Shown in pieces: positions 2,117 through 55,970 of a stretch of DNA of 64,000 nt. A model generated the notes under the pieces. It saw nothing but the letters and a program-made list of their open reading frames with translations, ran no database searches and was not told the DNA's origin. Each line of letters starts with the position of its first letter. Position 1 is the first letter of the stretch. The position numbers were made by a program, and so were the translations under genes. Source of the DNA: Acytostelium subglobosum LB1 (taxonomy: Eukaryota > Evosea > Eumycetozoa > Acytosteliales > Acytosteliaceae); NCBI RefSeq assembly GCF_000787575.1, contig NW_012236524.1, positions 1 through 64,000 on the forward strand, read 5' to 3'.

Positions 2117-5066
2117 ATGATACCAAACAGAGCTGAATGGAGAGGACAATCATATGACACAATCACTGAACTTGGACCTGAACCATTCATAACGCATGTT
2201 ACGGCATCAACAAAGCCAGAGGAGTTGTTGGCCACATGTCTTGCAAAGTTGAAGGACAACCAAGACAAGATTAAACAATGTGCCAATGACTTCTACAAAC
2301 TTGAGGCTGAATATCTCAAGGTCATTGACTCCGAAGTACCACTAATGTTCAAGGAGAGCAGAGAACTGATCAGCAGAATCACCGATGATTCATTCGTCAA
2401 GATTGCCTTGTGTGGTGCAACTTGTGCTGGTAAGTAATGGCGATGATGATGACGGTGTGCCAATCATTCATTCATACTAACTATACTCCACAACAGGCAA
2501 GTCCACATTGCTCAGTCTTCTCTTGGACAGGTTGCCATTGCCCAGTGGCAAAGGCCACACCACAGCCCGCATCTGTATCATTCGCTATGCAGAGTTGAAG
2601 GATGCCAAGATCAGTCTGTGTCGTCTCAACCAGGCCACTTCCAAGTTGGAGCCCATTCCCAATGGAGAGGCTGCCTCGTTGGCTCAGTACAAGACAACCA
2701 GAGAGCTGAAGCCCGTCCTCGACAAGTTCTTGCGCCGAGAGAACTTCCCAAATGAGAAGTTCGAGGAAATCGTCACTCAGATCGTCCTCATCCAGTATCC
2801 AATCAAACTGCTCAAGGGTGGTGTAGAGATCTACGATATCCCAGGCTACAGTTCAGAGGACAAGGACTGTCTCAGAGAACTGCGCCAGTCATTCTTGAAG
2901 CATGTCAATCCACACGGACTGATCTTCTGTTTCCCAAACCCAGCCTTCTCCACAGAGGAGATCAACGCATATGACGACCTGCTCAAAGGAATGGGCACCG
3001 ACGTCGAGCTGAGGACCACATCGAGGACATTCTTTGCCAACACCAAGTTTGAGATGTTCTCATTCGCTTACGACCAAGGCTTGACGCTTGAGGAGCTCGA
3101 GGATCAGCCAGACAAGGTGCAGGAGGAGGAGAAGAAGAGATCCGAGAACCTTCCCAAGAGGAGTCAACACCTCTCCGAGGAGAACAAGAACGTTGCACTC
3201 GAAGGATACACATACGCGCTGGTCAATGCCGTCGAGTACCTTGAGGGTGGTGGCCAGCTGATCTTCCATCGATTCCTGGAACGATTGTCAACATGGATCG
3301 TTGGCCAGCAACAACGTCGATACGCCACAGCCTACATGCGCATTGCCCAAGCCAGCAGTTCATTCTTCAGCAGCTACAATACCATCCGCTCAAACACCAT
3401 CGACAAAATTCTCAAGGAGGAATGGTTGAACAATGGCAATGCGTTTCTGGACCAGCTGGGCGACGATCTCCGTGAACAGCTAACGCAGTATCTCCTAAAG
3501 ATCGATGATCACTTCCAAGTGTTCATGGACAGGAACAATCTATACACCGAGGCACTCAAGGAGGCAAAGTCAATCAAGATCCAAGAGTACGACGGTCGCT
3601 CAAGATTGTACTCCGGTGAGGCCTCGGGTGCCTTCAAGGAGGCCTTCTCACCGTGGTTCAACAAGAATGTTCTGGAGGCCTTTTCCAATCATCTGCAGGG
3701 AGTTATTGATGGAGCCATTCAACAGACACTTAAAAACATCTTTGGCAGAGGCGATGTGTTTGAGAACGAGCTGCTCAACGATGTGCTGAAGCAGAGCTTT
3801 GTTGCCGGCTTCAAGTCCAAGATCTCCAACGACAAGATCCTCTACAACAGGATCACACCGACCATCATAACCAACATGTTTATGACTGCCTCTGACCATC
3901 CTGTGCTGGCCACGCTATCCGTGATCATGGGAGTGGGCATCATCGCCACGGTCTTTGGCCTGATCGCCGCGCCTTTCATTGACTCTTTCCGAAAGATCGA
4001 CGATGACTTCAAGGAGAAGTTGACCAAGCGTCTGTTTGTTGAGATCAAGAGCCAGGTGAAGGATCTCCCTAATAAGCTATTCGTGGAGCAAGTCGCCAGC
4101 ACACAGAAGGTCATCGAATCACTCAAGGGCAACCTGGTGGTGCGCCAAAACCAGATGACCAAGATGTCTCAGAAGCTTAAGAATATGCGCGAGATGGCCG
4201 AGACGCGTACCAATTTTGGCAAGGTGGAGGCCGAGGCACTGTCCGCGCTCACCAGTCTGATGGATCCGTCCTACAAGCCTGTGGTCTCGCTCGAGGACAT
4301 TGGAGGCGGGGCGACAGGTCGCGTCTACAAGGGCACACTCGAGGGCAAACCGGTGGCAGTCAAGACACTGGTCTACGCTGACCCCAATGGCGAGGCCTTT
4401 GAGATGGCAGAGTCGATGTTCTTTGAGGAGGTGAACAACAGCCATCAGCTCACAGCCAACATCACCAACCTCAAGTACCTGCTGCCCCTGCTGGGCGTCT
4501 TCAAGGACGAGGTCAGGAAGGAGTGGCAGATCGTTTACCCACTCTACGACTGTGACCTGTTCACCTACATCAAGCGCAGTATTCCGCATCTCAGCTTTAA
4601 GCAGTCACTGAACATCGCCATCGACATGGCATCGTGCATTGTGATCTTGCACCAGAACAAAATCATTCACCGTGATCTCAAGCTGGAGAACTTCTTCATC
4701 AACTACAACAGACAGACTGAGGAGATCACTCAAATCGCACTGGGTGACTATGGCACCATCACCTTTACAAACATCGCCACCACACTCGTTGGCACCATAC
4801 ACTATATCGCGCCAGAGATCAAGAGGGGCGATACCTACACGGAGAAGGTGGATATCTATGCATTCAGTGGTTTGCTGTTTGAGTTGTTGGCCAAGCCAAC
4901 ATTCCAACGAGCCAACATCGAGTCGTTCAAGAATGCCGCACCGATGAAGGGTGTGCCAGAAGAGTACCAACAACTACTTGTCGAATGCTCGGACGTCGAC
5001 CCCAATAAGCGACCAACGATTGACCAAGCCAAGCAGAGGCTGGTTGAACTGGCAAGAAAGCACTAA
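2117..5066 (+). CDS. Dynamin-like GTPase fused to protein kinase (array locus A, intact)
   Basis: Exons 2117-2429 and 2497-5066 give 960 residues; the 67-base intron cuts the P-loop codon in phase 1. An N-terminal helical region leads into a dynamin_N/BDLP-mitofusin-type G domain: P-loop GATCAGKS at 100-107, GHTTAR switch I, DIPG at 218-221, TKFE at 287-290. A long helical stalk follows, with a hydrophobic segment near 575-600 that may enter a membrane. The C-terminal kinase has a glycine loop (IGGGATGRVYKG, from 706), VAVK Lys727, HRDLKLEN with Asp831, DYG in place of DFG with Asp855, and APE at 876-878. Every catalytic residue expected of both enzymes is present. The kinase looks Ser/Thr, TKL-like. 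Cellular role unknown; membrane-bound GTP-controlled kinase is an inference. First of seven tandem loci. Confidence 0.85.
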
Positions 5067-5299
5067 ACAAGATGCTTGTATTTATTAATATAAAATGACA
5101 ATAAAATCAATCAACTCGTAAGCCACCAATCACTGTTTGATCACACTCTGTTTGCAAAACTTTGTGTTTACAAAATATCTGATCAGTTGGCACCAACTCA
5201 AAACACCGTCATTCATCATTCATTGTACAATAACCAGATAATAATACAAATAAATAATATTACTTTATACAAACAACAAATATAAAGGAGGATAATATT

Positions 5300-8130
5300 A
5301 TGAGTTCCTTTATTAATGACAATGATTATCATATTGGTGATCTGCCATCAGAGTTGGAGGACATTGACGATCCCCTCAAGAAGATGGCGGAGACTGTAAA
5401 GATATTCAGTGCGCTAAAGATGAAGTGTAATGATAGGATCAATGATCTATCAAAGTGTCACTCATATTTGAGTGAGGCAGTCAAGTCCACCCGCCTCTTC
5501 AAAGAGTTCACCAAAGACAAAATGAATGTCAAGTTGGTCATGGCTGGTCCGACTCATTCTGGCAAGGTATGTCATCTGTGATGTGATGTAAATACACTAC
5601 TCATTCAATCGTACAATCTCTCACACTCTATCCCAATCAATCAAACAATCAATCAACCAAACAGTCAACATTGATCAATACATTACTGTCGATATTCAAC
5701 CTGATGCCATCAGGAGCAGGTCATACATCAGGGAGGATATGCGTTCTGGCTCACTCGAAAACGATAAACATCAAGTTCTTCAAAGTGATACAATCAGAAG
5801 ATCACATGCCCAACACACTACAGTGTCTGGAGAATGAGACGATCAAGATTGGGTCCAACACATTCAACTTGGAGACGAGAAAGATACTCCATACTCATCT
5901 CGTTCGACCGGTTGGCATCGATAATGATTCAGATGCATTCGAAGAGTGGGCCAGCAAGATTGTGAGAGTCGAGTTCCCATCACCATTGCTTGAGACTGGC
6001 ATGGAGATCATCGATGTTCCGGGCTTCAGCAAGTCTGATCAATCATCATTGTTCAGCATCCGCAGACAGTTCTTCAATGTCTACTCGCCCACAGGCATCC
6101 TCTTCTGCTACCCAAACACATTCTCTGATGCCGAGGTGCTGGCTGTCAAGGACTTGAATGAATCACTCCCAGCCAACTGGAGCGAGACCAATGAATACTT
6201 CTTCTTTGCCAACACCAAGACATCCAAGAGTGAGGTGGCCACCAACAATAATATTGACAAGGGAGAAGACGTGCCGCTAGAGTTGATAGACAGCCACTCT
6301 GACAACTGCTTCTCCAAGATCAAGGCATCAAGTATCAGCGAGCTGATGTGTGTTGATCAGAGACGATTTGGAATCGTCAATGCAATGGAATTCTACAAAC
6401 AACCTCGATCAGTAGAGAGCAAATACATATTCAAACAGTTCATCAATCGGTTGATCAGATGGCTGGCCAGGCTGTTCCAACGCCAGTCTCGCATCATTTT
6501 GGGAACAATCATTCAAGAGTGTGCCTTCATGTCAGGCAAGGCTCTTTCAATCAATCAATACATTGACAATAACATAGGGTTTGGAAACCTGCTCCAGGAA
6601 TGCCAGAAGTTGGTTGACACATTCTCAAATACATTATGTCGCGAGTTGGACCAGATCATCGACACAATCCCATCGGTCGTCAAGTCTGCATTGGCCAACA
6701 AGTCAAACCAGGTGATCATCCAACGTGCCCATGATGCCATCACCAATGTGGCTGAATCCAAGGAGATGAAGTACATCATTGAGGACATCATCAAGGAGGC
6801 ATTCAATCCCATCGATGAGCTCATCACCAACAAGATTCAATCACTCACAGAGACCTTACTTCACGAGAGGGAGGACCTTGCTCACGATCTTCTCAAAAAC
6901 GCCTCCAGGGACGTTTCTATTATGATGTCTGGTACATGGCACCATCTCCTCTGCAAGTCAATCAAGTGGGTGATCAGTCCTTATGAGGATATCATGCGAC
7001 ACTTCAGGAAGCCCAAACTTGAATGGGGCGATCTCAACAACCTGATCAGGAAGTATCCCGGCACGATCGACATTACATCAATGAAGTTTGACGTTTTAGT
7101 AGAGGTACTTAGGAACAAATCCTCATTCAATCGACGCCTCAAGGGACAACACGAAAGTCTGGGACTCATTGTGAATGCAGGCACAATGAACTTCAACATC
7201 GACATGACATTGCAGAGCTATGTAAGACTCTTCAATGATGTGTGGGCACTACACAGTCAATTGGTGTTTCCATTCGATACAGTGACAGTAGATCGCACCA
7301 AAGCGGTAGCATGGGGCGACATTGGACCAGTATACAATGGATCATTCAGGAACACACCCTACCTAATCCAAGAGGTACCTTCAACTGACGTTGCGTTCGA
7401 ACTACCTCTCAGACTGACAATACAGGCAATGTTTGGACACAACGTGGCAAAAAGTAAACCCATGCTGCCACTTCGATTCTTCTTCAAATCAGATGTCACT
7501 GGCGGAGGGTGGCTACTGTTGTACCAGAAGCACAGTCCGTTGATGCCATATCTTGAGGAGAACATCTCAACGATGAGTGTCACTCAATCATTGGCAATGA
7601 TCAAACAGTTGATCAAAGCATTGGAGTATGTACCATATGTTGAAATCTTCAACATCTCAAAGATCTACTCGACAGAGAACATCAAATCAATGGCAATAAT
7701 AGTACAAGCTGCCAGATCATTGTATAATGGATATCAAGGTAACACCAATCATGATGGGTTCCCTCATGAGAAGGTGAGATTGGAGTACATGTACATGGAT
7801 GTCAACACCAAGGATATATACTTGGCTTCGTTTGGACATAGTTCCACAAGTGATTTTCATGGTCTCTCCAACCTAAGTTGGTATTCTACCGAGAAGGTAT
7901 TGGCATCGCTTGCCGTGGTCATTGCAGAGTTGTTACCCAAACCAATATTACAAAGATATACCGATAACGATTTCCGGTATCTGCATGATCCAATCAACCA
8001 ATGGAAGCCAAAGGGCGTTGACAACAAACACCATGGATTGTTTGTCGATTTGATCAGAGTATGCCTCGGAAAGACCACCATAAAGGAAGTACAATCAAAG
8101 TTGGAAGACATTTCGAAGCGTGTGAAGTGA
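5300..8130 (+). CDS. Dynamin-like GTPase with eroded pseudokinase (array locus B)
   Basis: Exons 5300-5566 and 5665-8130 give 910 residues. The intron lies between Lys and Ser of the P-loop in phase 0 (GPTHSGK/STL), unlike the phase 1 site in locus A. G-domain motifs: P-loop, GAGHTSGR switch I, DVPG, and NTKTSK where TKxD is expected. The stalk is recognisable (for example RWLARLFQRQ matching RWIVGQQQRR-type sequence in A). The C-terminal third aligns with the kinase but lacks the VAIK lysine, the HRD loop and the metal-binding Asp (SFG instead of DFG), so it cannot be an active kinase. Together with the locus at 11738 it forms a second subfamily. Possibly a partner or regulator of the intact paralogues; this is inference. 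Confidence 0.8.
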
Positions 8131-8467
8131 TTGATTAAAAAAACATGTTTTTATTGTTTGTTCACAAGTGTGGGTGTCATTCGTTTTTGATTGGAAGTGG
8201 ACCTATTTTGAAGTGGGGAGTGTCGTTTGGGTGTGTGTTGAGGCAAAGATTTTGATTGATCAAAACTATTCCTACTCTAGGAGAAAGTGATCAAACAAGT
8301 TCCAAAAATAGATGATGTCAAAGAATGACCAGATATTTTATTCTTTTTTTTTGATTAACAAAACTACCTTCACTTCATTGACTCATTTAATCATACATAC
8401 ACATACTTTCATACATTCATTCTATACTAATACAAACTAAGTAACAATAATAACGACACCAAAAACG
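8131..8467. other. Spacer between loci B and C
   Basis: Non-coding. Contains a T-rich run near 8341-8352 and AT-rich sequence leading to the start of locus C. No RNA gene recognised. Confidence 0.5.
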
Positions 8468-11400
8468 ATGATATCTAACAACACAGTCGACAATAACAAT
8501 AACAACAATAATAACAGTAATAATAAGAATAATAATAATAATCAGAAAATATCATTCTATGATTCAATCACAGAGGTTGGACCTGAAGAGTTCATCAAAT
8601 GTTTGATTGGTAGTAATAATAATAATACAGATTTGAAGCCAATTAAGTTGTTGGAGACATGTCTTTCAACTTTAAAGTCAAATCAAGTCACCATAGAGAC
8701 ATGTAGTAATGACTTTATTAAACTCGAGAGTGAATACATCAAGTCATTGGACAGCGAAGAACTAGAGACACTGTTGTTCAAAGAGAGTCAAGACCTGATC
8801 AGTCGAATCACCAATGATCCATTTGTAAAGATAGCATTCTGTGGTGCAACCAATGCTGGTATGTGTCATCATTCAATCAATCAATCATTCAAATGAGTGA
8901 TCACTAACACTCACTCACTCATACGTATCATCAACAGGCAAGACAACTCTGTTGATGACACTTCTGGATAGGTTGCCATTGCCCAATGCATCTGGACATA
9001 CAACGGCCAGGATCTGTGTCATTCGTTATTCAGAGTTGGAGAATGCAAATCTCCACTACTGTCGACTCAACACAGAGACGTCCAAGTTGGATCGTATCCC
9101 AGATTCACAGGTCATCTCGCTCTCACAGTATCCAACAACAAGGTCATTGAGGGATGTCTTGTTCCAGCACCTTAGCCGTGACAATATGCCCAAAGGCGAG
9201 GCTCAGTTTGAGGAGGCCGTCTCTCAGATCGTTGTCATCGAGTATCCAATCACATTGCTCAAGGGTGGAGAGGAGATCTACGACATCCCAGGTCAGAGTA
9301 GCACAGACTTGGAGTGCCTAAAGCAGCTGCGACAGTCCTTCCTCCAACATATCAACCCCCACGGTGTAGTCTTCTGCTTCCCCAATCCAGCATTCTCGAC
9401 CGAGGAGATCAAGGCTTACGAGGACCTGCTTCAGAGCTTGAGAACAGACGTTGAGCTGAGGTCGGCCTCAAGGACCTTCTTTGCCAACACCAAGTTCGAT
9501 TCATTCTCATTGTCGTACGACCTTAACCTGACCTTGGATGAGATGATGGTAAACGCTGTCCCTGATGAGGAACAAGCACGATCAAACAACCTGCCCAGAA
9601 GAGCGCAACAACTGGACACGTCCGAGGCAAACAAGGAGGTGGCCTTCAAAGACTACACATACTCGTTGGTCAACACAATGGAGTATCTCGAAGGCAGTGG
9701 TGATGCGATCTTCCACCGCTTCATCGAGCGTCTGGCCACTTGGATCGTGTCACAGCAGCAACGCCGATATGCCACAGCCTACAAGCACATTGCCGAGGCA
9801 TCCAACTCATTCTTCCGCAGTTACAACACCATCCGATCAAAGGAGATTGGCAACATCCTCAAAGAGACCTGGCTCAAGAATGGCAATGAGGCACTCGATA
9901 GCCTTAGAACGAACCTCCTGTCGAGGATGGACGACATCTTGCAGAGGACTGCGCAGCACTTTGAAGACTTCTTGGTGGAGCACGACCTCTACAACAAGGC
10001 ACTGGCCAAGGCCAAGTCCATCGTGGACACAAACTACGAAGGACTCTCAAGGTATAATGCCAGTGCTTATGCCGAGGTGTTCAAGTTGAGGTTCTCGCCA
10101 TGGTTCAACGAGAATGTTTTGAAGGCCTTCATCGACTCAATTCAGAGACGCATCGACTCGGCCGTGGAGGAGTCCATGAAAGTTGTCTTTGACAGGACCG
10201 ATTCAATCGAGAATGAGTTGCTCCTCGACGTCCTCCAACAGTCATTCGTATCAGGCTTCAACAGCAGGATCTCCAATGACTCGATCTCATACAAGAACAT
10301 CACACCGACCATCCTGTCCAACCTCCTGATGACCGCGACCAAGCATCCCATGTTGTTGGCACTGGTCATCATATCAGTGGTCGGCATCATCCCAACAGTG
10401 ATCTCAGTGATCGTGGCACCGATTATGGATGCCATTCGAAAGATTGACGATGACTTCAAGGTGGAGTTGACCGATAATGTGTTCTTCAAGATCAGAGAGC
10501 AGGTTAAGAAGTTGCCAGTGACCATGCGCACGATCCAAACGCAAACTATCAGCGACACAATCGACTCCATCAAGGGTAACCTTGCTGCGCGACAGGAGCA
10601 ACTTAGGTTGATGTACGAGAAGCTGGACTCGTTGAGAAACATGGCAGAGATGAGGACCAAGTTTGGAAGGGTCGAGGCTGAGGCCTTGTACGCGCTCACC
10701 AACTTGATGGACCCATCATACATTCCAGTGATCACAAACACCGACGAGGACATTGGAGGTGGTGCAACAGGTCGCGTGTACAAGGGCACACTCAAGGAGA
10801 AGCCAGTGGCCATCAAGACCTTGTCCTATCGCAAACCAATTGGAGAAGCATACGAGATTGCAGAGTGCATGTTCTTTGAGGAAGTGAACAACAGCTACCA
10901 ACTCACCAACAAGATCGGATCATCAAGGTACCTGCTCCCACTGCTTGGTGTCTTCAACGATGAGACCAGGATGGAGTGGCAGATCGCCTATCCACTCTAC
11001 GACTGTGATCTCTTCCACTACTTGCATCGCAGGATCACCAATGGCAACATCATCACATGGTCCGAGACGCTGTCCATCGCCATCGACGTTGCGTCATGCA
11101 TCCAACTTCTACACGACAACAGCATCATTCACCGCGACCTCAAGCTGGAGAACATCTTTGTCAACTATTCCAAGGATACTTGGAAGATCACTCATATCTC
11201 GCTGGGCGACTATGGCACCATCACCTTTGACAGAGTGGCAATGTCCTATGTTGGCTCGGATCGCTACATGGCACCCGAGATCAGGACAGGCTACACCGTT
11301 CCCAACTCAATCTACACGGATTCAGTCGATATCTATTCACTCAGTGGCATACTATTCGAGTTGATTCCAAAGAACAAGTTCCAAAGAGCCAAGATTGGAT

Positions 11401-11537
11401 ACTTCAACACTGATCAACATATCAAGGATGCACCAGAGCAGTATCGCAAACTGATCATGGATTGTGCCAACAATGATCCAGACCTACGACCAAAGATCAG
11501 TGATGTGAAGTCAATATTGTCATCAATTGTACTTTAA
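8468..11537 (+). CDS. Dynamin-like GTPase fused to protein kinase (array locus C, intact)
   Basis: Exons 8468-8858 and 8938-11537 give 996 residues; the 79-base intron cuts the P-loop (GATNAG/KT) in phase 1 as in locus A. The extra N-terminal length is an asparagine-rich tract. G domain: GATNAGKT, GHTTAR, DIPG, and TKFD, the most canonical G4 of the array. The stalk carries a strongly hydrophobic segment (LALVIISVVGIIPTVISVIV). The kinase keeps IGGGATGRVYKG, VAIK Lys757, HRDLKLEN with Asp864, DYG Asp888 and a MAPE motif. It is the closest relative of locus A over its whole length, and both halves should be functional. Substrate unknown. Confidence 0.85.
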
Positions 11538-11737
11538 TATATCTGTGTACACAATGAATAAAGTAATACCAACACCAGATAGTGTATCTTGGTGGCTAAC
11601 ACGAAGTTCTTGGACACCAAGGTCCTTGTGTGTGGAGTCAATGAACTTGAAAAATCAGTTCTGAACCTTGCCTTGATCATTCAAACAGTTGACAATACTT
11701 ATAACATAGAGATACAGATATTGTAATAACAACAAAG

Positions 11738-13715
11738 ATGAATGTTAACAAGTTTATCAACTCAGACTACTACATAAATGATTTGTCACCAGAGTTAAAG
11801 GGTATAGAGGAGCCTTTGAAGAAGTTGACAGAGACACTCAAGGTGTTCAGTGCACTAAAGAGTGAATCATTTGATAAGATCATAGAACTAGAACAATGTC
11901 ATCAACGAGTTGATGGTATTATAGACTGTGATCATACAATCAAAGATATCGCAAACAGAGACTATTCAAAGATCAAGCTGGTCTTCTCGGGTCCGACATA
12001 TTCTGGCAAAGTAGGTTCAATCTCACTCATGATGATGTACATTATTCACTGAATCTCACTCATTCAATCAAACAATCAATCATTTAGTCAACTTTGATCA
12101 ACACACTACTATCCTACCAACTTATGCCGTCAGGTGCAGGTCACACGAGGCAAACCCAGCCTTCTCCGATGGCGAAGTGATGGCTGTACCAGACCTGATA
12201 AATTCACTGCCTCGTGACTGGGGATCAGATGAGACAATATTCTTTGTCAACACAAAGAGGTCAATTGCCGAGGTGGCACTCAACAACAACATCGATAGTG
12301 AGTTTGTCACAACAGAGCTAATCAACAAGTATGATAATGAATGTTTGGCAAAGTTCAAAGGATCGATGCTCCACACTTCATTGTTACCCGATGATAGACG
12401 ATTCTCATTGGTCAACTCATTGGACTTTATCAAACGACCAAGATCAATTTCAACTCGATACATGTTCCAGCTGTTCATCGATCGTTTGGTCAAGTGGATT
12501 GGGAGACTCTTCCAGAGACAGTGCGACACAATCCTTTCATTGCTTGAGATTCAGTGCCAGAGCATTTCACCAATTGTTCGATCGGCTCAGAACTACTTCG
12601 ATATCAAAGAGGATCTCTACTTCTTGGAGCATCAAACAACTCAATTGTTGAATGAAGCCATTTTCAGTGCAAAGAGGGTGGTATGGCATTCTCTCCAAAG
12701 CATTCCACAGTACTTCAAAGACTATTTTATATCAAGAAAGAAGGATATTCGAGGATCCAAACTCTCAAATGACCCAGTCAATACTTTCATACTTGTAATA
12801 GCAGATGGCACAAACTTGTTCCTCTCATCGTTCAAAGACAAATATGACAACTCAATCAACAACATTTTAAAGTCGATCTTGAAAGAGGATAACTTCGTCA
12901 CAAATATGTTTAAGAGTACAATGAAGGACATCGAGTGGAGCCTAAAGACACCATTCCCCACACTACTCTACAATCGTCTACAAAATGCCATTAGTTCATA
13001 CCTCAACTTCTTTGTTTCGATTCCAATCATTGATTCACAAGTTGAATCACAACACCTGACAGGGTCTAAGTTGGATGTCAGGGAATTGCTTGACAAATAT
13101 GTGGAATCGATCAACATATATTATCTTAAGTTTCTATCTGTTGACAAAGAAGTCAATGAAACATTCGAGATATTCGAGACCAACATGCTCCTTCAAATTG
13201 GTCGTCTTAAACATCAAGCTAAAATGTCCAAAATGCCATATGATCACTTGAGCGACAGTCTTCACAGTTATCAATCACTTCATCTGGATGTGTTGGCACT
13301 CAACTGCAAGGTACACTTCCCTTTCGACAATGTTAAACTAGACCTATCCATTATCGATCACTATCACGAGGTTGGACAAGTATACACAGGGGAGTTCAGA
13401 GATCAAACATTCCTTGTTGTTCGGACCAGAGATCCTTCAATCGATCTCACCAAGAAGATAATCAGTCATGCTTTGTTGGCAAACAAACTGACCATGGACA
13501 TCATGCACTCATAGAACACAGACGTAATAGAGTTTTGGCTACAAACTCAACCCAAGTTGTCCTAAAAATGAATCACATCGAATCATTGAATCAGATACAT
13601 AATCATCAAATCATGACCATATTACCACTTAAGGCATTCTTCAAACAATACAACAACGACCAAATTGAATGGCTGTTGTTGTTCGGTCGATATCAAATAG
13701 TTGAGATGGCCCAAA
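11738..13715 (+). pseudogene. Broken B-type GTPase-pseudokinase gene (array locus D)
   Basis: Exon 1 (11738-12010) and the start of exon 2 (from 12088) match locus B, with the same phase 0 intron inside the P-loop. After GAGHT the sequence jumps to the NPAFSDGEV region, so roughly 125 codons covering most of switch I through the DxxG motif are missing and the frame is shifted. A long frame then runs to 13514 through the stalk. The pseudokinase portion continues in another frame (ILPLKAFFKQY, WLLLFGRYQ) and stops around 13700, where it joins the intron of locus E. The gene cannot make a working GTPase. Since the distal frame of about 445 codons is open, decay may be recent. Confidence 0.8.
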
Positions 13716-13788
13716 CGATTATTGTCATTCCATCAATCATCTGCTCATACTCATTCATTCATTCAATCTTTGAATCATTCAATAACAG

Positions 13789-16222
13789 GCAAGTCGGAGC
13801 TGATCAGCACCCTTCTTGATCGCTTACCATTGCCCTCTTCAATAGGTCACAACTCGGCCAGAATCACAATGATTCGGTATGCCAAGTTGGAGGATGCCAA
13901 GCTCTACTTTTGTAGTCTCAACACTGATCGCTGGAAGCTCAAGTCCAATCCTGATCTGATTCCAGATGGAGAGGTCATCTCACTCTCACAGTATCCAACA
14001 ACAAAGTCATTGAAGGATGTACTGGCCGAGCACCTTAGCCGTGCCAATATGCCAAAAGATGAGGACCAGTACAAGGCGGCTGCCTCTAAGATCGCTGTCA
14101 TCGAGTATCCTATCACATTGCTCAAGGGTGGCCTGGAGATATACGACATACCAGGCGATTGTTCGGATGATATGGCATGGCAAAAGGAGCTGCGACAGTC
14201 CTTCCTGAGGACATTCGACCCGTATGGAGTAGTCTTCTGTTTCGAATCCGATGTATTCACCGACACGGTGATGAATACCTACAACGACATGGCATATTCG
14301 AGATTGGCGGATGTTAACATCGAGCTGAGGAACACATCAAGGACATTCTTTGCCAACACCAAGTTCGAACTATTCTCTTTCGCATATGACATTGACAGGG
14401 ATCTCCCCTTAGAGGAGGTGACGAATGACATGATCTCCGAGGAGGAGAAGATATGTATTGAAACAATTCTCAGTCGCACCAAGTCCGATGGCTTCAAAGA
14501 ATACACGTACTCGCTAGTCAACACAGTCGAGAATAGTGAGGGCTGCGGTGAATGGATCTTTGACCGCTTCATCAAGCGCCTGGCCACATGGATCGTATCA
14601 CTGCAACAATGTCGATTTGCCATGGACTACAGGCGCATTGCCGATGGATGTAACACATTCTTCCAAAACTACAACGTCATGCGACCCAAGACCATAGCCA
14701 ACATTGCCAAACAGTCATGGCTTGGCAATGGTAAAGAGGCAATGGAGAATCTGAGACCGATCCTCTTGACAATGATTGACACGATCTTGAAGAGTATTGT
14801 ACAACACTTTGAAGACTTCTTGACTGAGCACGACCTCTACAACAAGTCCGTCGACAAGGCCAAGTCGATCGTGCACCCAGAGTATGCCAGTGTCTATGCA
14901 GAGGTGTTCAAGAAGGAGTTCACGCCGTGGTTCAACGAGAATGTCTTGACACCCTTCATAGGCATGATGATTCCACTATCAGCTCAGCTGTGGAGAAGTC
15001 AATGATGTTAGTCTTTGACAGGACGGACGTGCTTCAGAATGATTTTCTTTTGGACGTCATTCAACAGTCATTCTTGGCAATCTTCTTAAAGAATGTCTCA
15101 ACCGACAAGATTGTGATCGGATCAGTTGGCGGTATCATCCCATCAATGATCTCACTACTGGTTGTTCCAAAGAAGATTGACGATGACTTCAAGGTGAAGC
15201 TGACCAACAAAGTATTCAACAAGATCAGACAGCAGGTCAAGGCGATGGACATGCGCACCAAACTGGCAGAGATAATCAACAAAACAATCGATTCACTCAT
15301 TGATAATATTCCACTGCGACTCAGAGATCTTAAGAAGCTGTACGAAGAGCAGGATGACATGGACGAACTCAAGCCCAAGTTTGGAAAGATTGGAGCTGAG
15401 GCCTTGTCAACGCTCTCGAACTTGATGGACCCGTCATACAGACCACTGATTAGCTCAGCCGATGAGGACATTGGTGGCAATATGTACAAGGGTACACTCA
15501 AGGGTGTACCAGTGGCCATCAAGACCATTTCATATAGCATCATGATTGGTGAAGATGACGAGATGGCAGAGAGCATGTTCTTTGAAGAGTTAAACAACAG
15601 CTACCAACTCACAAAAATTTACCGAACATCAAAGTACCTGATTCCACTGCTTGGTGTATTCAACGATGAGATCAAGATGGAGTGGCAGATTGTCTATCCA
15701 CTATACGACTGTAATCTTTTCAACTACTTGCAGCGCAGGATCACCAATGGCAACATCCTCAAATGGTCTGAGACACTTTCAATCGCCATCGATGTGGCGA
15801 CTTGCATTGGACTACTTCATAAGAACAAAATCATTCACAGAGACATCAAGCTTGAGAACATCTTCATCAACTTCAACAAGAATACCGAGGTGATCACTCA
15901 CCTCATTCTAGTCAACTATGGCGCCACCAATACCAATGTCGAACATTCACTCGATATCAAGCGCAACGAAGATCATCACTATACAATGGAGACAGAGTCA
16001 GTTGATATCTATTCACTAAGTTGCATACTCTACGAGTTGGTTCCAAGGAATACACTCCAACGATCACACAATAACGACTTCACAAACATCCATGGCGCAC
16101 CAGATGAGTATCGCCAACTAATAATGGATTGTGCCCAAATCTATCCAAACTTGCGACCAAACATCAACGAAGTGCGGAAGACTCTGTCCTCCATTGTACA
16201 TGGATTAACTAGACATAAATAA
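13789..16222 (+). pseudogene. 5'-truncated A-type GTPase-kinase gene (array locus E)
   Basis: It begins at a splice acceptor (CAATAACAG) followed by GC AAG TCG, exactly where exon 2 of loci A and C begins, but exon 1 is missing and locus D lies directly upstream. The G domain resembles A/C (DIPG, TKFE). A frameshift near 14960 splits the stalk, with the second frame running to 16222. The kinase glycine loop is shortened (IGGNMYKG), HRDIKLEN is kept, DFG is NYG and there is no APE. It shares with locus F the short hydrophobic segment GSVGGIIPSMISLLVVP, so E and F are sister copies. Not expected to give a functional enzyme. Confidence 0.8.
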
Positions 16223-16836
16223 ACATGTAATGTATATATTGATCATCCTAGGATGATAGGGTGTCTTTGTTTGTTCAAAAAGACTCAAAAGTAAGAGTTT
16301 AAACAAAATTGATTCATTCAGTTCACAACAACTTACAACATTAAACAGATAATCATATAGATAAACAAAAAGATAGACAATGTTAAAGTAATTGACTGAC
16401 AGATGTTGAACATCATCAACAACATCATCATCATCACCATCATTGTAATCTTTCATATCATATCAACTTAATATTAAAGATAAGATTATTGGTCATGTGA
16501 GTACATGGACAGACGCAGGTTGTTTTTGCAGAGATCATGATTGGCAAACAATGCCAAGTTGGACACATCGACGATACACTACTACTACGGTGTCAACAAC
16601 AGCAGATATTACATTGATCGATCAATCATTCAATAGTATACTATCGAGTCTCGACCAAACGTGCTTTCGTTTACGTAGTACAGTTGTGTGAGCCAACCAA
16701 TCAAAAACTTGGGTTTCCAATCTGATCAAATTAATAAATATCCGGAATCATGTGATGACAATGTTGCTCGCGTAATGTTATTAACCAATCAAACTGGTGG
16801 AGTGGACCATCATTTGTTATCATACTTACTTAAACA
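16223..16836. other. Spacer between loci E and F
   Basis: AT-rich, with a 16-base palindrome (ATCATCCTAGGATGAT) at 16242-16257 just past the end of locus E. No gene or RNA recognised; the sequence from about 16700 is likely the promoter of locus F. Confidence 0.5.
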
Positions 16837-19662
16837 ATGACAGATAGTAGTAATAATATATTCTATAATTCAATCATTGAGATTGGACCTGAACCGTTCG
16901 CCAAACAAGTGATTGATCGTTCAAAGTCAGAACCAGGAAAGGTGTTGGAGACATGTCTTTCAATGTTAAAGTCGAATCAAGATCAGATAAGTACATTGTA
17001 CAATGACTTTACCCAACTTGAGAGGGAATATTTTAAGGACTTGGGCTACCCAGACTTAGAACTGGGTTTGTTGTATAAGGAGAAGCAAGCCCTGATTGGT
17101 CGAGTCATCATTGAACCAATTGTAAAGTTAGCCTTCACTGGTGCTACCTACTCTGGTAAGTATCATCAATCAATCATTGATCCATTCATTCAAACATACT
17201 TATTCACTTATTCATTCATTCCATTCACAGGCAAGTCGACTCTGATCAGCTCCCTTCTGGATGGCTTACCATTACCCACTGCAAGATCACGCAGAACAGG
17301 CAGATTCACCGTCATTAGGTATGCAGAGTTGGAGAATGCCAAGCTCTACTTCTGTCATCTCAACACCGAGACATCCAAACTGGATCCAGATGGACAAGTC
17401 ATCTCACTCTCACAGTATCCAACAACAGAGTCATTGAGGCCTGTCCTGGCTGAGCATCTTGGAGGTGGCTATAAATCAAAGGGTGAGGAGATTGACGAGA
17501 ACAAGGCGGCTGTCACTCAGATCGGTGTCATCGAGTATCCAATCTCATTGCTCAAGAGTGGATTGGAGATCTATGACTTACTGGGCTTTTGTTATGGTGA
17601 TAAGCCATGCATCAAAGAGTTGCGCCAGTCCATCATCAAACATATCAACCCGCATGGTATCGTCTTCTGTTACTCCAACCCAGCATTCGATAAGGGTGAG
17701 ACCGAAGCCTACAATGATCTGATACGTTCGAGATGGGGAGATGACTCTGTGCAAACGAACATCTCTAAGACATTCTTTGCCAACACCATGTTCGATCTAT
17801 TCTATTTCCTGTATGATATTGGCCTCAGCGTCGAGGAGATGACGACCGACATGATCGAGAAGGAGGAAAAGAAACGATTTGATATCCTACCCAAGGAGAG
17901 CAGGGAGGTAGCCTACAAATACTCGTTGGTAAATGCAATTGATCTTCATTGCCGAATTGATAAGGATTATATAGGTTGTGACGATTTTATCTTCCACCGT
18001 TTCCTGGAGAGACTGGCAACATGGATCGTGTCATTGCATCAACGTAGATATGCCAAGTCTTGTGATGGGATTGCTACAGGTTGCAACTCATTCTTCGAGA
18101 GCTACAACGGCCTCCGATTAAGGATAATTGGAAGGATTGCCAAAAAGTCCTGGCTCGACAATGGCATAGTCGCACTCGAGAATCTGAGGCCGATCCTTCT
18201 GTCAATGATTGACACTACCCTCAAGAGTACAATGCAGCACTTTGAAGACTTCTTGCTGGAGAATGACCTATACAACAAGGCAATCGCACAGGCCAAGTCG
18301 ATCGTGCACCCAGAGTATGCCAACGTCTATGCTGAAGTGTTCAAGAAGGAGTTCATGCCATGGTTCAATGTGAATGTCCTGACACCATTCATCGATGTGA
18401 TGCGGGGTCGTATCAACTCAACCATGGAGAGGGCAATGAAGATTGTCTTTGACAGTAAAGAGGACGACACTATTTGGAAAGCAATGGACATCATTCATCA
18501 GTCATTCATTGCCAACTTCAATGAATATATCTCGACCGAAAAGATAGTGATCGGATCAGTTGGTGGAATCATCCCATCAATGATCTCACTTCTGGTTGTA
18601 CCAAAGAAGATTGATGACGACTTCAAGGTGGAGCTGACCAACAAAGTATTCAACAAGATTAGACTCCAGGTCAAGGCAATGGACATGCGCACCAAACTTG
18701 CAGAGACGATCAACAAAGCCATCGACTTACTCAGGGATTACATTCCAAAGCTACTCGAACAACATACGATGTTGCGCCAAAAGATGGACTTGATGAGCAA
18801 CATGACAGAGTACAAGACCAAGTTTGGAATCATTGGGGCAGAAGCCTTATCCGCTCTCAACAACGTGATGGATCCATCATACAGGCCAGTGAAACTCTCT
18901 ACAGTTGACCAAGAGGGTGGGTACACTAGTGCAGCGGGGCGAGTGTACAAGGGCACGCTCAGGGGCGAGCCAGTTGTCATCAAGACAATGCCATTTAGCA
19001 TCATGATTGGAGAAGCCGACCAGATAGCAGAGAGCATGTTCTTTGAAGAGATGAATAACAGCTACCAACTCACCAACAGTATCAGATCATCCAAGTACCT
19101 GCTTCCACTGCTTGGTGTCTTCAACGATGTGACCAAGATGGAGTGGCAGGTTGTCTATCCACTCTACGACTGTAATCTGTTCAAATACTTGCATCGAAGG
19201 ATCACTCAAGGTAACTTCCTCACATGGTCCGAGACACTGTCCATCGCCTTCGACATTGCGTCATGCATTGAACTGCTGCACAAGTATTACATTATTCACC
19301 GCGACATCAAGCTTGAGAACATCCTCATCAACTATGACAAGGATACCGAGGTGATCACTCACCTCACTCTTTGCAACTACGGTGCCAACACCAATGCAGT
19401 CGCACGTTCACCCGATATTAAGAGCAATGTCGATGACTACACAATGGACACAGAGTCAGTTGATATCTATTCACTCAGTTGCATACTCTACGAGTTGATT
19501 CCAAGGAATACACTCCAACGATCACACAATGGTGACTTCAAACACATCAATGATGCACCTGATCAGTATCGCCAACTGATAATGGATTGTGCCCAAATTG
19601 ATCCAAATATGCGACCAAACATCAATTCCGTAAAGGAGACTCTATCATCCATTGTTCTGTAA
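16837..19662 (+). CDS. Dynamin-like GTPase with pseudokinase (array locus F)
   Basis: Exons 16837-17155 and 17231-19662 give 916 residues. The 75-base intron splits the P-loop (GATYSG/KS) in phase 1, is a multiple of three and has no stop, so unspliced mRNA stays in frame. G domain: GATYSGKS, DLLG for DxxG, TMFD where TKFD is expected, so the guanine-contacting Lys is lost. The stalk has a shortened hydrophobic segment shared with locus E. The kinase region keeps a VVIK lysine and HRDIKLEN (His796-Asp798), but the metal-binding DFG Asp is Asn822 (NYG) and APE is absent. I infer a pseudokinase and a GTPase with altered nucleotide binding. The open frame over its full length argues for selection. 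Confidence 0.8.
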   Translation: MTDSSNNIFYNSIIEIGPEPFAKQVIDRSKSEPGKVLETCLSMLKSNQDQISTLYNDFTQLEREYFKDLGYPDLELGLLYKEKQALIGRVIIEPIVKLAFTGATYSGKYHQSIIDPFIQTYLFTYSFIPFTGKSTLISSLLDGLPLPTARSRRTGRFTVIRYAELENAKLYFCHLNTETSKLDPDGQVISLSQYPTTESLRPVLAEHLGGGYKSKGEEIDENKAAVTQIGVIEYPISLLKSGLEIYDLLGFCYGDKPCIKELRQSIIKHINPHGIVFCYSNPAFDKGETEAYNDLIRSRWGDDSVQTNISKTFFANTMFDLFYFLYDIGLSVEEMTTDMIEKEEKKRFDILPKESREVAYKYSLVNAIDLHCRIDKDYIGCDDFIFHRFLERLATWIVSLHQRRYAKSCDGIATGCNSFFESYNGLRLRIIGRIAKKSWLDNGIVALENLRPILLSMIDTTLKSTMQHFEDFLLENDLYNKAIAQAKSIVHPEYANVYAEVFKKEFMPWFNVNVLTPFIDVMRGRINSTMERAMKIVFDSKEDDTIWKAMDIIHQSFIANFNEYISTEKIVIGSVGGIIPSMISLLVVPKKIDDDFKVELTNKVFNKIRLQVKAMDMRTKLAETINKAIDLLRDYIPKLLEQHTMLRQKMDLMSNMTEYKTKFGIIGAEALSALNNVMDPSYRPVKLSTVDQEGGYTSAAGRVYKGTLRGEPVVIKTMPFSIMIGEADQIAESMFFEEMNNSYQLTNSIRSSKYLLPLLGVFNDVTKMEWQVVYPLYDCNLFKYLHRRITQGNFLTWSETLSIAFDIASCIELLHKYYIIHRDIKLENILINYDKDTEVITHLTLCNYGANTNAVARSPDIKSNVDDYTMDTESVDIYSLSCILYELIPRNTLQRSHNGDFKHINDAPDQYRQLIMDCAQIDPNMRPNINSVKETLSSIVL

Positions 19663-19902
19663 TATAATTGAAGATATGATCATTCATTGTTATTATCTCT
19701 ATCACTATTATTATCTGTTTGTGTTGGGCTGTTTGTTCGCGTTGACAATGTTTGACTTTTTGCTTCTTCCCCTATTTTGCACTCTCAAGTTTGATCAAAT
19801 AAATATCTAATCACAACCGACCAGTCGTCTTCTGATTGATCAACTATCATTATTATTACTTACTATTACTAATACTACTAGATAGATATATAAAGATAAA
19901 AG

Positions 19903-22752
19903 ATGACAACTGAGGATGAAGTGGTCAAACACTATGATAGGATACTGTTTGATCAAACATATATTACAACATCAATCATTAATGATATAATAGATTCAGT
20001 CCAACAACAACAACCATGTGATCATATGTTATCAACATGTTTAACAATGTTAAAGGATAACATTTATAATAATGATAATAATAATAATAATAATAATAAT
20101 GATGGAGATAATAATCATATTGATAGGATCAAGAAATGTGTTGAAGATATACATAACATTGAGACTAAACACTTGAAGGATGTCTCATCACTTGGACATG
20201 TGTTGTCCAAGGACACTTCACAACTGATCAACAGTATAACAAACGATACCTTTGCTAAGATCGCAGTATGTGGTACTATTGGCTCTGGTATGTATCCATC
20301 ATCATCTCATTCATTCATTCATTCATTCGATACTTACTCCTCACACGCTCACTTAGGGAAGACAGCACTGATCCGATCACTACTGGATGATATACCATTA
20401 CCCACTGGTAATGGAGGAAAGACAAAGAGAATATGTGTTGTGAGATATGCAGAGTTGAAGGATGCAAAGGTTAGCTTGTGTACTTTGGACAGGACCAATT
20501 CAAAGTTGAAGCCAATCCCGGATAAGGCAGCCACCTCACTCGCCCAATACCCAACGACAAAGGAGATCGACAGGCAACTTCTTGACAAATTCATCCGATG
20601 GGACCCATCACAAGAGTGCAAGTTTAAAGAGTTTATCTCAAAGATCGTACTCATCGAGTATCCAATCACACTACTAAAGTGTGGCGTCGAGCTGTTTGAC
20701 ATCCCAGGCTATGGCCCAAATGACACAAACAGCTTCAAGGAGCTGAGACAGGCATTCTTGGAACACATGGACCCACATGGTGTACTGTTCTGCTTCCCCA
20801 ACAGCACCTTCACGCCCGAGGACAGGAATATATACAACCACATCCTTCAAACACTTGGCATCAAGCAGCCTCATGGAGACAGGGTCTTTGTTGTCAACAC
20901 CATGTTCAGTTTGCTATCGCTGGCCTATGACCTCGGAGTCAATCACCTCAATGATCTCGATTGCTTGATGGCCGAGGTGGACAAGCTGGATCAGATGATC
21001 GTCAAAACGATCAATTTTGGTGCCGACCATATCAACAACAGCAACAACCTTGTCAACTTCTCACGTATCAATTCGTTGGAGTATTTGGAGAGACTCCCAA
21101 ATGGCCTGGTCACCTTCAATCGGTTCATCAAACGTCTTACAAGGTGGATGATGATGTTGGAGCACCGTCGACTGTGCACATCCTATCGATTGATCATCAA
21201 CGACTGTGGCAGGTACTTACGCACCTACCAACAACTATGCTCCAAGTCATTGATGAACAAGGAGGTCGAGAACTTGGAAATTCTTTGCGAGTCAATCGTT
21301 CGCAGTCTGTCATTGGTAGTTAAGGATGTCACATTCGAGGATTTCGTAGACAATCATGACATCTATAGCCAGGCACTATCAATGGCCAAGTCAATCAATA
21401 TCCCAAATTATGATGGTAAATCAAGAATGTATCTCTCCGATGCTACACAAAATTTTAAAGAGGCCTTCGACCCTTGGTTCCAGAAGAATGTTATCGAACC
21501 CTACTTGGATCACTTCACCAAATGCATAGAGCAAGCACTATGCGCTCCTCTTGGGTCCCACCTTGAGAGCTCTCAACTGACACGCACGCTCTTTGGAGTA
21601 ATGTTCTTCACCAACATTGACACACCTTACCATATAGCCAAACATGTTGCGAAGCAGTTATTTGATTACGTTGAAATACGTTGTATGGTCATTGGAATGA
21701 TATCCTCGGTCTTTTCTTTGTTTGGAGCTCGAAACATTGACACTCTAAAGAAGATGGATGACGACTTTAAGGAAAAGGTGATCAGTCGCCTTTTTAAGGA
21801 GCTCAACCATTGGATCAGTATAGGTGACCTTCATAGATTGTGCGATAAGATCAAAGGAATGATCGATTTGATCAAGATGGACATCCAGAAGTTCAAAGAC
21901 GTTCACAGCCAAATCGGCAATATCAATCACTTGTTTGGATTGGTCTCGGCCTCGACCATGTCTGCACTCACATGTTTGATTGATCCTTCATACAAACCAG
22001 TGATCTCAGATCAAGACCACCATGGTAATGGCTATATCAATCTCCATAAGGGAATGCTCCAAGGTCTGCCAGTGACCATCAGGACACTACACTATGGTGA
22101 TGGCAATCCCAACTCTCACCACCAACTAATGTTTATCAAACAGTTCCAACTTGGATTCCAAATCAAGTACAACCTCAAGCAGAAAGATCCAAAGACCAAG
22201 CACAAGGGTATGATCACTCAATTGGGTATCTTCAAGGACGAGGCCAGGAAGGAGTGGCAACTTGTCAATCCACACTATGATTGCAACCTGCTCACATTTG
22301 TCAATCGAATGATCATGTATCTTAAATGGAAGGAGCTGGTCAACATCGCCATTGACATTGCAGGATGCATAGAGGTGTTGCACAGCATCAACTATGTCCA
22401 CGGAAGTATCAATTTGGAGAACATCCTCATTAAGTATGACAACCGATTCGATAGTATCACTGACCTGGTACTTGGTTACTGTGACACCGTCAACGTTGTC
22501 ATGGACAATAATCCAACAACAATGTCATCTGATGTCTATGCCTTCAGTGGCATACTCTACGAGTTGATACCAAAGCCAAGGTTCAAACAAGCCAACATTG
22601 AATCCTTTAGCAAGGGTGAAGATGAGCACTTGAAGAGTGTATCTGTACCATATCGTCAACTGATCATTGATTGTTCTCAATCAAATGCAGTCCTTCGACC
22701 AAGTATCAAAGATGTAAAGTCAACTCTATGCTCCATCGCTTCGCAACTTTAA
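19903..22752 (+). CDS. Divergent dynamin-like GTPase with pseudokinase (array locus G)
   Basis: Exons 19903-20287 and 20357-22752 give 926 residues; the phase 1 intron in the P-loop (GTIGSG/KT) is 69 bases, in frame and stop-free. An asparagine tract lies in the N-terminal region. G motifs: GTIGSGKT, GGKTKR at the switch I position, DIPG, and NTMFS at G4. Only a weak hydrophobic stretch remains in the stalk. The kinase-like end has Arg704 for the VAIK lysine, HGS (from 810) for HRD and no DFG or APE, so it is a pseudokinase. It is the most divergent member of the array and the last one. The intact frame suggests a working non-kinase function. Confidence 0.8.
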   Translation: MTTEDEVVKHYDRILFDQTYITTSIINDIIDSVQQQQPCDHMLSTCLTMLKDNIYNNDNNNNNNNNDGDNNHIDRIKKCVEDIHNIETKHLKDVSSLGHVLSKDTSQLINSITNDTFAKIAVCGTIGSGMYPSSSHSFIHSFDTYSSHAHLGKTALIRSLLDDIPLPTGNGGKTKRICVVRYAELKDAKVSLCTLDRTNSKLKPIPDKAATSLAQYPTTKEIDRQLLDKFIRWDPSQECKFKEFISKIVLIEYPITLLKCGVELFDIPGYGPNDTNSFKELRQAFLEHMDPHGVLFCFPNSTFTPEDRNIYNHILQTLGIKQPHGDRVFVVNTMFSLLSLAYDLGVNHLNDLDCLMAEVDKLDQMIVKTINFGADHINNSNNLVNFSRINSLEYLERLPNGLVTFNRFIKRLTRWMMMLEHRRLCTSYRLIINDCGRYLRTYQQLCSKSLMNKEVENLEILCESIVRSLSLVVKDVTFEDFVDNHDIYSQALSMAKSINIPNYDGKSRMYLSDATQNFKEAFDPWFQKNVIEPYLDHFTKCIEQALCAPLGSHLESSQLTRTLFGVMFFTNIDTPYHIAKHVAKQLFDYVEIRCMVIGMISSVFSLFGARNIDTLKKMDDDFKEKVISRLFKELNHWISIGDLHRLCDKIKGMIDLIKMDIQKFKDVHSQIGNINHLFGLVSASTMSALTCLIDPSYKPVISDQDHHGNGYINLHKGMLQGLPVTIRTLHYGDGNPNSHHQLMFIKQFQLGFQIKYNLKQKDPKTKHKGMITQLGIFKDEARKEWQLVNPHYDCNLLTFVNRMIMYLKWKELVNIAIDIAGCIEVLHSINYVHGSINLENILIKYDNRFDSITDLVLGYCDTVNVVMDNNPTTMSSDVYAFSGILYELIPKPRFKQANIESFSKGEDEHLKSVSVPYRQLIIDCSQSNAVLRPSIKDVKSTLCSIASQL

Positions 22753-22833: not shown

Positions 22834-23897
22834 ATGTCAGACATACCTGTGAATGAAGTGATAAGTGAGGTGGCACTCATTTTCACTTTAGTTATCCTCC
22901 AGAACAATGTGTCCATTGACAAGGATGATCTACAAAGGTTCAACGACAAGCTATTGGCCAACATCCAGGATTGTATTGATCCAGTCAATGGAGTCCTCTT
23001 GAGCTATGGTATCTTCCCGACAGCAGCCTGCATCAATCATTCATGCCTCCCCAACACGGTCCGATACACTGACAACAATGGCATGTTGGTGTTCCGCAGC
23101 AACAGGGCCATCCAGTCGGGTGAAGAGATCACCACAAACCGTATTCCTGAAGTGATGCTCACAAGATCCAAGCCACTTAGGAACATTGTGACCAAGCAGC
23201 TTGATATCCATTGTACTTGCATTCGCTGCACCGTTGACAACAAGGAGTATCGATGTCCAACGTGTGGCCTTGGAGTTGACCGAAGTATGATCAAGACATG
23301 GGAGCCATTGCCAGAGATCAACTTGATGGCCGAGTGTACCAGTGTACCAAAGGTCATATCACCATGGCTGGTTACTACGAGATGCTAGACGACTCGGATC
23401 CCCACTTTTTCTGCCAACCATCAATGGTAGACTTGGAGCCCATCCTATTGCAATACTTCCAGAAGGGAAGTGGCAAGTTGATGCACCTTCAACAAGTGAA
23501 GTTGGTTGACTTGGTGCAAAGGAAGCAGTACCACTTGTGGCCAAGAGCAATCGAGAGTCTTTGGAAGAGGTTCGAGGTTGCCTTTGACAACCACAAAGGT
23601 ATCATACCAGAGATCTATGCGATGTTTGAACATGTACATTGCACTAGGACGTACCTCCAAGAACACCAAGAAGATGAGTGAGGTCAAAGAGTTGTGCCGA
23701 CAGCTATTGGAACAAAACATTCAACTATCGACGCACAACTATCGTCATTTGTTCCATTACATATTCTCGATGAAGTTTGTCAGTTCATAGAGTCATTGGA
23801 TAGTTTGGCACCAAACTATATCATCGAGCATCACACTCAACTATCCAAGCATTATCATCATCATCGCCATGACTTTGAAGAGTTGTTCAAGCAATAA
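22834..23897 (+). pseudogene. Truncated TPR-SET-MYND family pseudogene
   Basis: Only the second half of the family is present: SET core INHSCLPN and SGEEI, the post-SET cysteines (CTCIRC, CPTCG) and the C-terminal domain. The N-terminal TPR and MYND parts seen in the neighbouring gene at 24077 are missing. The frame changes near 23320 and again near 23680 and 23800, although each piece aligns well with the neighbour (for example DGRVYQCTKGH). The end HDFEELFKQ matches CEFEQLFTIK in the intact gene. A 5'-truncated, decayed duplicate of the next gene. Confidence 0.8.
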
Positions 23898-24076
23898 TAT
23901 CATTCATTCACTGTTTGTATCTGTTTGTGTATCTGTTCGCAAATGATTGTTTGAATGAATGAAAGATTGTGAAGCTCGAGGGTCAAAGTGAAGTTCTCCC
24001 TAACTCACAGATTGATTCATACTTCATCTTGCGCATATTCATAGAGATAGAGATAATAGAGATAATAGAGATAGAT

Positions 24077-55830: not shown

Positions 55831-55854
55831 TCTTCTTCTTCTCTTTCAAGAGAT

Positions 55855-55882: not shown

Positions 55883-55970
55883 GTGTATGAATGAATGAGT
55901 GATTGACTGATCAATCATTGAATGAACTTGCAGAATCAAAGGGATATTCGTCAGATTGCAAAAAAATGAA

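Follow-up and report, generated by a model that had tools for sequence, protein, structure and literature searches.

Several described systems come close to the genes considered here. In the Roco/LRRK proteins, such as roco4 and LRRK1, a GTPase and a TKL-type kinase share one polypeptide; this coupling matters in signalling and in disease, and the control of the kinase by GTP is unsettled. The bacterial proteins BDLP and Slr0869 (the latter we take to be SynDLP) have, to our knowledge, no kinase domain, and in BDLP the G domain is followed by a long helical region with a hydrophobic stretch. Mitofusin/Fzo1 is a dynamin-superfamily GTPase with helical and hydrophobic parts, and superfamily members act in membrane fission, in fusion or as scaffolds, according to the accessible sections of a review of the Dictyostelium discoideum dynamin superfamily (PMC8565484). 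The social amoeba D. discoideum possesses such large GTPases in DymA, DymB, DlpA-C, Sey1, the Fzo1-like protein and Gnbp; those sections tabulate eight D. discoideum members and mention no protein-kinase fusion, the word 'kinase' occurring there for lipid kinases and in reference titles (PMC8565484). In the current study we analysed a window of 64,000 nucleotides from Acytostelium subglobosum LB1 (contig NW_012236524.1, positions 1 to 64,000 of the forward strand), where a single gene family occupies positions 2117-22752 with seven tandem copies, each read from the plus strand, whose best preserved members join a dynamin-type GTPase to a protein kinase. This is apparently a domain architecture new for the dynamin superfamily, carried by a tandem family that seems to be turning over.

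The copies are numbered G1 to G7 in array order (the 'G4 motif' below is the GTPase motif TKxD, separate from gene G4). Five are full-length and two, G4 and G5, are broken; the spacers between them measure 200-614 bases, and when four members of the family were compared with the window by tblastn, no further copy came up beyond the array at an expectation value (E) of 1e-3. Each of the full-length copies (G1, G2, G3, G6 and G7) has one intron of 67-98 nucleotides (nt) interrupting the P-loop codons. In G1, G3, G6 and G7 this intron directly precedes the P-loop lysine and has phase 1; in G2 and G4 it directly follows that lysine and has phase 0. As both phase and position differ, we distinguish two lineages, type A (G1, G3, G5, G6, G7) and type B (G2, G4), of which type B is the second and deep one, with G2 sharing 22-24% identity with G1, G3, G6 and G7 and with the kinase motifs lost from the C-terminal part. 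The window has a mean G+C content of about 44%, reminiscent of Acytostelium; its asparagine runs, its short introns rich in A+T (AT) and its FNIP-repeat genes fit a dictyostelid. The features of the array are as follows.

2117..5066, plus strand: G1 gene, exons 2117..2429 and 2497..5066, 960 residues, kinase motifs intact, G4 motif TKFE
2402..2870, plus strand: G1 Dynamin_N match (Pfam), residues 96-229, split by the P-loop intron
2430..2496, plus strand: G1 intron, 67 nt, phase 1, GTAAGT..CAACAG, inside the P-loop codons
3915..3971, plus strand: G1 hydrophobic segment LSVIMGVGIIATVFGLIAA, residues 578-596, in the helical region
4290..5036, plus strand: G1 Pkinase domain (Pfam), residues 703-951
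5300..8130, plus strand: G2 gene, type B, exons 5300..5566 and 5665..8130, 910 residues, intron phase 0
Within 5300..8130, plus strand: G2 motifs, P-loop GPTHSGKS and DVPG retained, C-terminal part a very degenerate kinase remnant
8468..11537, plus strand: G3 gene, exons 8468..8858 and 8938..11537, 996 residues, GT..AG intron inside the P-loop codons
10359..10415, plus strand: G3 hydrophobic segment ALVIISVVGIIPTVISVIV, residues 605-623
10740..11510, plus strand: G3 Pkinase domain (Pfam), residues 732-988
11738..13514, plus strand: G4 gene, broken type B copy related to G2, still with exon 1 and its intron, GTPase region partly missing, frame broken
13790..16222, plus strand: G5 gene, broken type A copy, frame broken near 15000, HRDIKLEN and NYG, no APE
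16837..19662, plus strand: G6 gene, exons 16837..17155 and 17231..19662, 916 residues, DLLG and NTMFD in the GTPase part, predicted pseudokinase
18934..19635, plus strand: G6 Pkinase match (Pfam), residues 675-908
19903..22752, plus strand: G7 gene, exons 19903..20287 and 20357..22752, 926 residues, predicted pseudokinase

An earlier note, made from the letters of this DNA, had described at least two complete genes, at 2117 and 8468, encoding 960 and 996 residues, and had placed them in a fast-changing tandem array. Both descriptions hold: the P-loop codons of either gene are split by a GT..AG intron, and the array comprises seven strongly diverged copies. In the spliced products of these two genes, G1 and G3, Dynamin_N (E 1.2e-13 and 1.2e-10, respectively) and Pkinase (2.5e-31 and 5.3e-27) lie above the curated Pfam cut-offs. 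The order proposed in the note, a GTPase, a stalk with a hydrophobic segment and then a kinase, is likewise supported by the positions of the Pfam matches, by a 19-residue segment with a Kyte-Doolittle peak of 2.4 in G1 and 2.8 in G3 (2.3-2.8 across G1, G3 and G6), and by the kinase motifs from VA(V/I)K to APE. The full catalytic set survives in G1 and G3 alone: the lysine of VAIK, the glutamate of the C-helix, HRDLKLEN, DYG (in place of DFG) and APE, in the forms VA(V/I)K, HRDLKLEN, DYG and (I/M)APE. The kinases of these two copies are likely to be active; HRDLKLEN suggests specificity for serine and threonine.

Dynamin_N passes its curated cut-off in all five full-length spliced proteins, barely in G6 (27.2 against 27), and G2 deprived of exon 1 misses it (24.5). 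The P-loop is retained in all five and in gene G4, and an alignment judged by eye finds the threonine of the GTPase G2 motif and DxxG in five of five. Features of a dynamin-superfamily G domain are present in every full-length copy and the canonical TKxD is restricted to G3. The TKF(E/D) motif reported earlier is found in G1 (NTKFE) and G3 (NTKFD), and TKFE also in G5; it does not extend to G6 (NTMFD), G7 (NTMFS) or gene G2 (NTKTS), again as read by eye. G3 is consequently the sole full-length copy in which canonical TKxD and the kinase motifs stand together. A kinase family scores above cut-off in four of the five full-length proteins; G6 passes by Pkinase and G7 by PK_Tyr_Ser-Thr only (its Pkinase score is 23.9, below 31.7), and G2 has Dynamin_N alone. 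G5 and G6 keep the lysine, the glutamate and HRDIKLEN, have NYG and lack APE. All five catalytic motifs are lost in G7, which reads HGSINLEN, has arginine for the VAIK lysine and is without DYG or APE. G5, G6 and G7 are therefore predicted pseudokinases, and in three full-length copies, G2, G6 and G7, the kinase part is probably inactive. The earlier description of an array of GTPase-kinase fusions needs correction in that the locus is not uniformly an array of kinases: of the five copies whose kinase can be recognised, G1 and G3 have intact motifs and the other three have lost catalytic residues; G2 is more decayed still.

The possibility that adjoining GTPase and kinase genes had been joined artificially was considered and judged unlikely. 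One open frame spans both parts, and exon 2 is free of stops in all five full-length genes. The junction has an AT content of 37% in G1 (4217-4366) and 49% in G3 (from 10718), compared with 64-73% in the seven spacers from that between G1 and G2 to the one after G7. AATAAA occurs in five of these seven spacers (it is absent from G2-G3 and G4-G5), and neither AATAAA nor ATTAAA is found in exon 2 of G1, G3, G6 and G7, the four genes tested. In six-taxon FastTree trees of both halves, G6 groups with G5, and G3 is adjacent; the alignments used after the 12-row alignment leave out G2 exon 1 and both pieces of G4, which it had shown to be misplaced or short. As the frame is open, the junction has neither an AT-rich spacer nor AATAAA, and the trees broadly agree, the dynamin-kinase fusion looks real.

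The frames also appear to have been kept under constraint. Between G1 and G3 the nonsynonymous and synonymous divergences (dN and dS) are 0.33 and 1.27 overall, 0.42 and 1.50 in the linker and 0.31 and 1.09 in the kinase, and between G3 and G6 they are 0.31 and 0.70; many other pairs, chiefly those with G2, have a saturated or uncomputable dS and are given no weight. Neutral simulation of the G3 frame, with substitutions only, produced a mean of 10 stops at 0.1 substitutions per site and 26 at 0.35, and none of 100 runs was stop-free at any of four distances, whereas the G2, G6 and G7 frames have no stops.

Sequence comparison suggests that the GTPases may be most like BDLP/mitofusin-type members of the dynamin superfamily. 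A PDB sequence search with residues 1-697 of spliced G1, covering the GTPase and stalk, yielded a total of 17 sequences with E no higher than 1. The best were BDLP (2j68/2j69; 1.2e-5) and Slr0869 (1.5e-4), matched over the G domain only, followed by the weaker mitofusin-1 (MFN1, 0.012), mitofusin-2 (0.028) and IniA (0.059), among unrelated chains. The array proteins resemble BDLP also in a predicted long helical region with a hydrophobic stretch after the G domain, and differ from BDLP and Slr0869 in not being bacterial. The mitofusin likeness lies around the P-loop; past that region there is no match, and mitofusin has no kinase.

The kinase domain looks mainly TKL-like, a term we use because most of the top PDB matches are, as we take them to be, TKL-type. 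Among the best 60 of 178 sequences matched by the G1 kinase at E up to 1e-10 are 2qkw (presumably Pto), DLK, roco4, LRRK1, FERONIA and IRAK4; a four-sequence kinase profile matched CERK1, roco4, B-raf and IRAK4, and also EGFR. The matches to roco4, LRRK1, DLK, IRAK4, B-raf and CERK1 lie at about 1e-14 to 1e-12. With Roco/LRRK kinases among the best matches listed, the likeness to those proteins is in the kinase and in the sharing of one polypeptide; in Roco/LRRK the GTPase is Roc, which is Ras-like and accompanied by COR, whereas that of the array is a dynamin-type G domain, and no Pfam match to Roc, COR or LRR was found at E up to 1 in any of the five full-length proteins.

Two further collections of kinase models were compared. 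In NCBIfam, the parts of G1, G3 and G6 that were submitted gave kinase-type matches only, all below their cut-offs. Among the PADLOC defence models, mad6 scores best for the kinases of G1, G3, G5, G6 and G7 (G1: 7.8e-45); for G1 its 151.9 bits exceed the 109.5 bits of Pfam Pkinase, in a comparison confined to kinases of the array. A special link to mad6 is spoken against by the NCBIfam MAD6 model, which gives G1 58 bits, less than a PknB-type model and far under its cut-off.

Relatives with the same architecture were not evident in the material searched. The contig, plasmid and phage collections are non-eukaryotic by design and silent on other dictyostelids. A scan of viral contigs with two short peptide patterns gave 125 pattern matches, none confirmed, and distant relatives could escape such patterns; two scans of genome contigs, with two patterns each, gave 103 and, with patterns from the kinase alignment, 59 pattern matches, again none confirmed. 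No match to the G1 GTPase part was found in plasmids or phages by tblastn, and none in PHROGs to the GTPase parts of G1 or G3. On prokaryotic conflict systems, the accessible part of PMC7159879 does not contain the word 'dynamin'. The word also occurs zero times in the accessible portions of the Dictyostelium kinome main text (PMC1420674) and of the Acytostelium genome paper (PMC4334915). The earlier note knew of no described family with this order of domains. In a full-text literature search no dynamin-kinase fusion is evident among the matches listed, as judged from titles and the starts of abstracts, and support for the claim reaches as far as that literature; elsewhere, proteins of this architecture may well be annotated in entries that no paper discusses.

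The broken copies G4 and G5 lie next to each other. On the 3' side of the G4 end another frame is still similar to the kinase remnant of G2 (a 400-base search gives E 0.005), and beyond it lies the apparent 3' end of a G5 intron; a full kinase remnant is absent from G4, and G5 exon 1 was not found in the window with G1 exon 1 as query. One deletion joining G4 and G5 would account for both the lost end of the former and the lost start of the latter. G5 is 70.9% identical to G6 in its 3' part and 58.8% in its 5' part; as dS is little different between the two (0.53 and 0.69), gene conversion in G5 is no more than possible. The introns of G6 (17156-17230, 75 nt) and G7 (20288-20356, 69 nt) are multiples of three and free of stops, so their retention would add 25 or 23 residues to the nucleotide-binding loop with the frame unbroken.

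Other genes surround the array. Directly before it, at 1112-1699 on the plus strand, there is a gene, or what is left of one, for a DDE_Tnp_4 transposase (6e-16). A second dynamin-family gene, perhaps a Dlp-type dynamin at a guess, occupies 38904-40614 on the minus strand, with Dynamin_N at 1.1e-21 in the open reading frame (ORF) 38904..40601 and no kinase in the part read; a P-loop-like GMQSDGKSS in another frame from 40614 makes an intron near its P-loop likely. SET-type ORFs form two clusters on opposite strands, at 22834-26319 and 53411-59973, some with TPR-like parts as judged by eye; one ORF was scanned for SET (2e-5), one TPR match lies at its cut-off, and the clusters are apparently a local expansion. 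Between 41820 and 53348, FNIP-type ORFs, one confirmed (1.6e-28) and the others by eye, surround an ankyrin-like ORF of 1390 residues (45162-49334, minus strand) whose Ank_2 match is just below cut-off. FNIP families are large in dictyostelids, as stated in the accessible part of PMC4334915.

We tentatively propose, at somewhat less than even confidence, that the proteins assemble on a membrane in response to GTP and that their kinases, clustered in this way, activate one another in trans, with the pseudokinase paralogues as partners. The GTPase would bind a membrane via the hydrophobic segment of its helical stalk and would dimerise or polymerise in a GTP-dependent manner; assembly would place the G1 and G3 kinase domains close enough for mutual activation, and the activated kinases would phosphorylate nearby substrates or the assembly itself. 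The full-length paralogues G6, G7 and G2 may join as regulatory or decoy subunits. Roco proteins and the assembly of dynamins offer the analogies for which we rank this reading first, as the most likely; its main rival is that the kinase feeds back on the GTPase.

Several results weigh against this proposal and the domain assignments beneath it. It takes from other families, by analogy, the binding to membranes, the oligomerisation and the activation of the kinase. Four of the five full-length copies have a G4 motif other than TKxD, which calls GTP specificity into question, and the hydrophobic segment is weak in G7 (1.6) and not seen in the stalk of G2, whose maximum of 1.6 lies near the C-terminus. 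AlphaFold runs, based on alignments of the window's own paralogues, reached a mean predicted local distance difference test (pLDDT) of 56.1 for G1 exon 2 and 50.9 for the GTPase-stalk part of G6, translated with its intron included, both of low confidence; the stalk is predicted to be helical in these models, with one helix of 87 residues, at values that leave its fold tentative. For the G1 exon 2 model the best 50 Foldseek rows were all protein kinases, which is why the second model was limited to the GTPase and stalk, and that model gave no match at E 0.001 or better. Its first match was BDLP 2j69 (E 0.013, template modelling score (TM) 0.23), and further dynamin-superfamily entries among the best 50 of 329 rows (5owv, Drp1, IniA, CmDnm1 and MxB) were mixed with unrelated helical proteins. 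The C-terminal region of G2 matches a kinase profile weakly (hhalign probability 63.5%, E 6.8e-5, motifs lost), and G2 is not firmly placed in the kinase tree (support 0.434). Non-TKL kinases also occur among the kinase matches (Aurora C, IKK-beta and PLK1, and EGFR with the profile).

It is also possible, though we consider it rather unlikely, that the kinase serves the GTPase, phosphorylating its own or a neighbouring G domain and so switching membrane remodelling, with other substrates minor; the pseudokinase copies would then be unregulated or dominant-acting GTPases. A kinase acting on a GTPase has a precedent in Toxoplasma ROP18, which acts on IRG proteins. The persistence of the P-loop in all five full-length genes and gene G4, with kinase motifs in G1 and G3 only, agrees with such a role, as does a G domain slightly more similar than the kinase between G1 and G3 (64% against 59%) and between G1 and G7 (46% against 41%). 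However, the similarity is reversed between G3 and G6 (kinase 65%, G domain 55%) and equal between G1 and G6 (51%). Moreover, the full-length copies that lost the kinase motifs also have a worn G4 motif, so that the GTPase is not cleanly preserved where the kinase was lost, and we continue to favour clustering and activation in trans.

The tandem arrangement invites comparison with cell-autonomous defence. IRG and GBP families are expanded. GBPs and IRGs are large GTPases with defence roles, as described in the accessible part of PMC5758549. By analogy, rapidly duplicating membrane GTPases could mark pathogen-containing or damaged vacuoles, the kinase serving as the signalling output and the pseudo-enzymes as decoys or adaptors. 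The array, in which five copies are full-length, two are broken and divergence is strong, fits birth-and-death evolution like that of genes under conflict. The GBP/IRG-like character suggested in the earlier note survives as regards tandem arrangement and rapid change, and as an analogy only; the sequences lead to BDLP, Slr0869, mitofusins and IniA, with no GBP or IRG among the Pfam or PDB matches at E up to 1. The window also contains local expansions without an evident defence role, those of the FNIP and SET-type genes, and we regard the defence explanation as improbable. Equally improbable is the gradual loss of an ancestral fusion from this lineage, in which case G1 and G3 would be its last functional copies or of little consequence: G4 and G5 are broken and catalytic motifs are lost in G5, G6, G7 and G2, yet G2, G6 and G7, though widely diverged, have open frames of 910-926 codons, the neutral control yields many stops, and dN is below dS for G1-G3 and G3-G6.

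Carried further, GTP-dependent clustering of the kinases would make these proteins an undescribed class of GTP-gated membrane kinases, in which dynamin-type assembly replaces a ligand-bound receptor and an evolving set of pseudokinases takes part in mixed assemblies, possibly guarding the vacuoles of a phagocytic amoeba as a defence; we consider this larger picture unlikely as it stands. The combination of dynamin and kinase would make a GTP-controlled kinase directly testable. If activity is confirmed, a natural fusion of a dynamin-type GTPase and a kinase would represent an independent solution to GTPase-kinase coupling, one in which membrane assembly can be followed and mutated and natural pseudokinase variants are at hand for comparison, and it would equip the dynamin superfamily with a kinase output.

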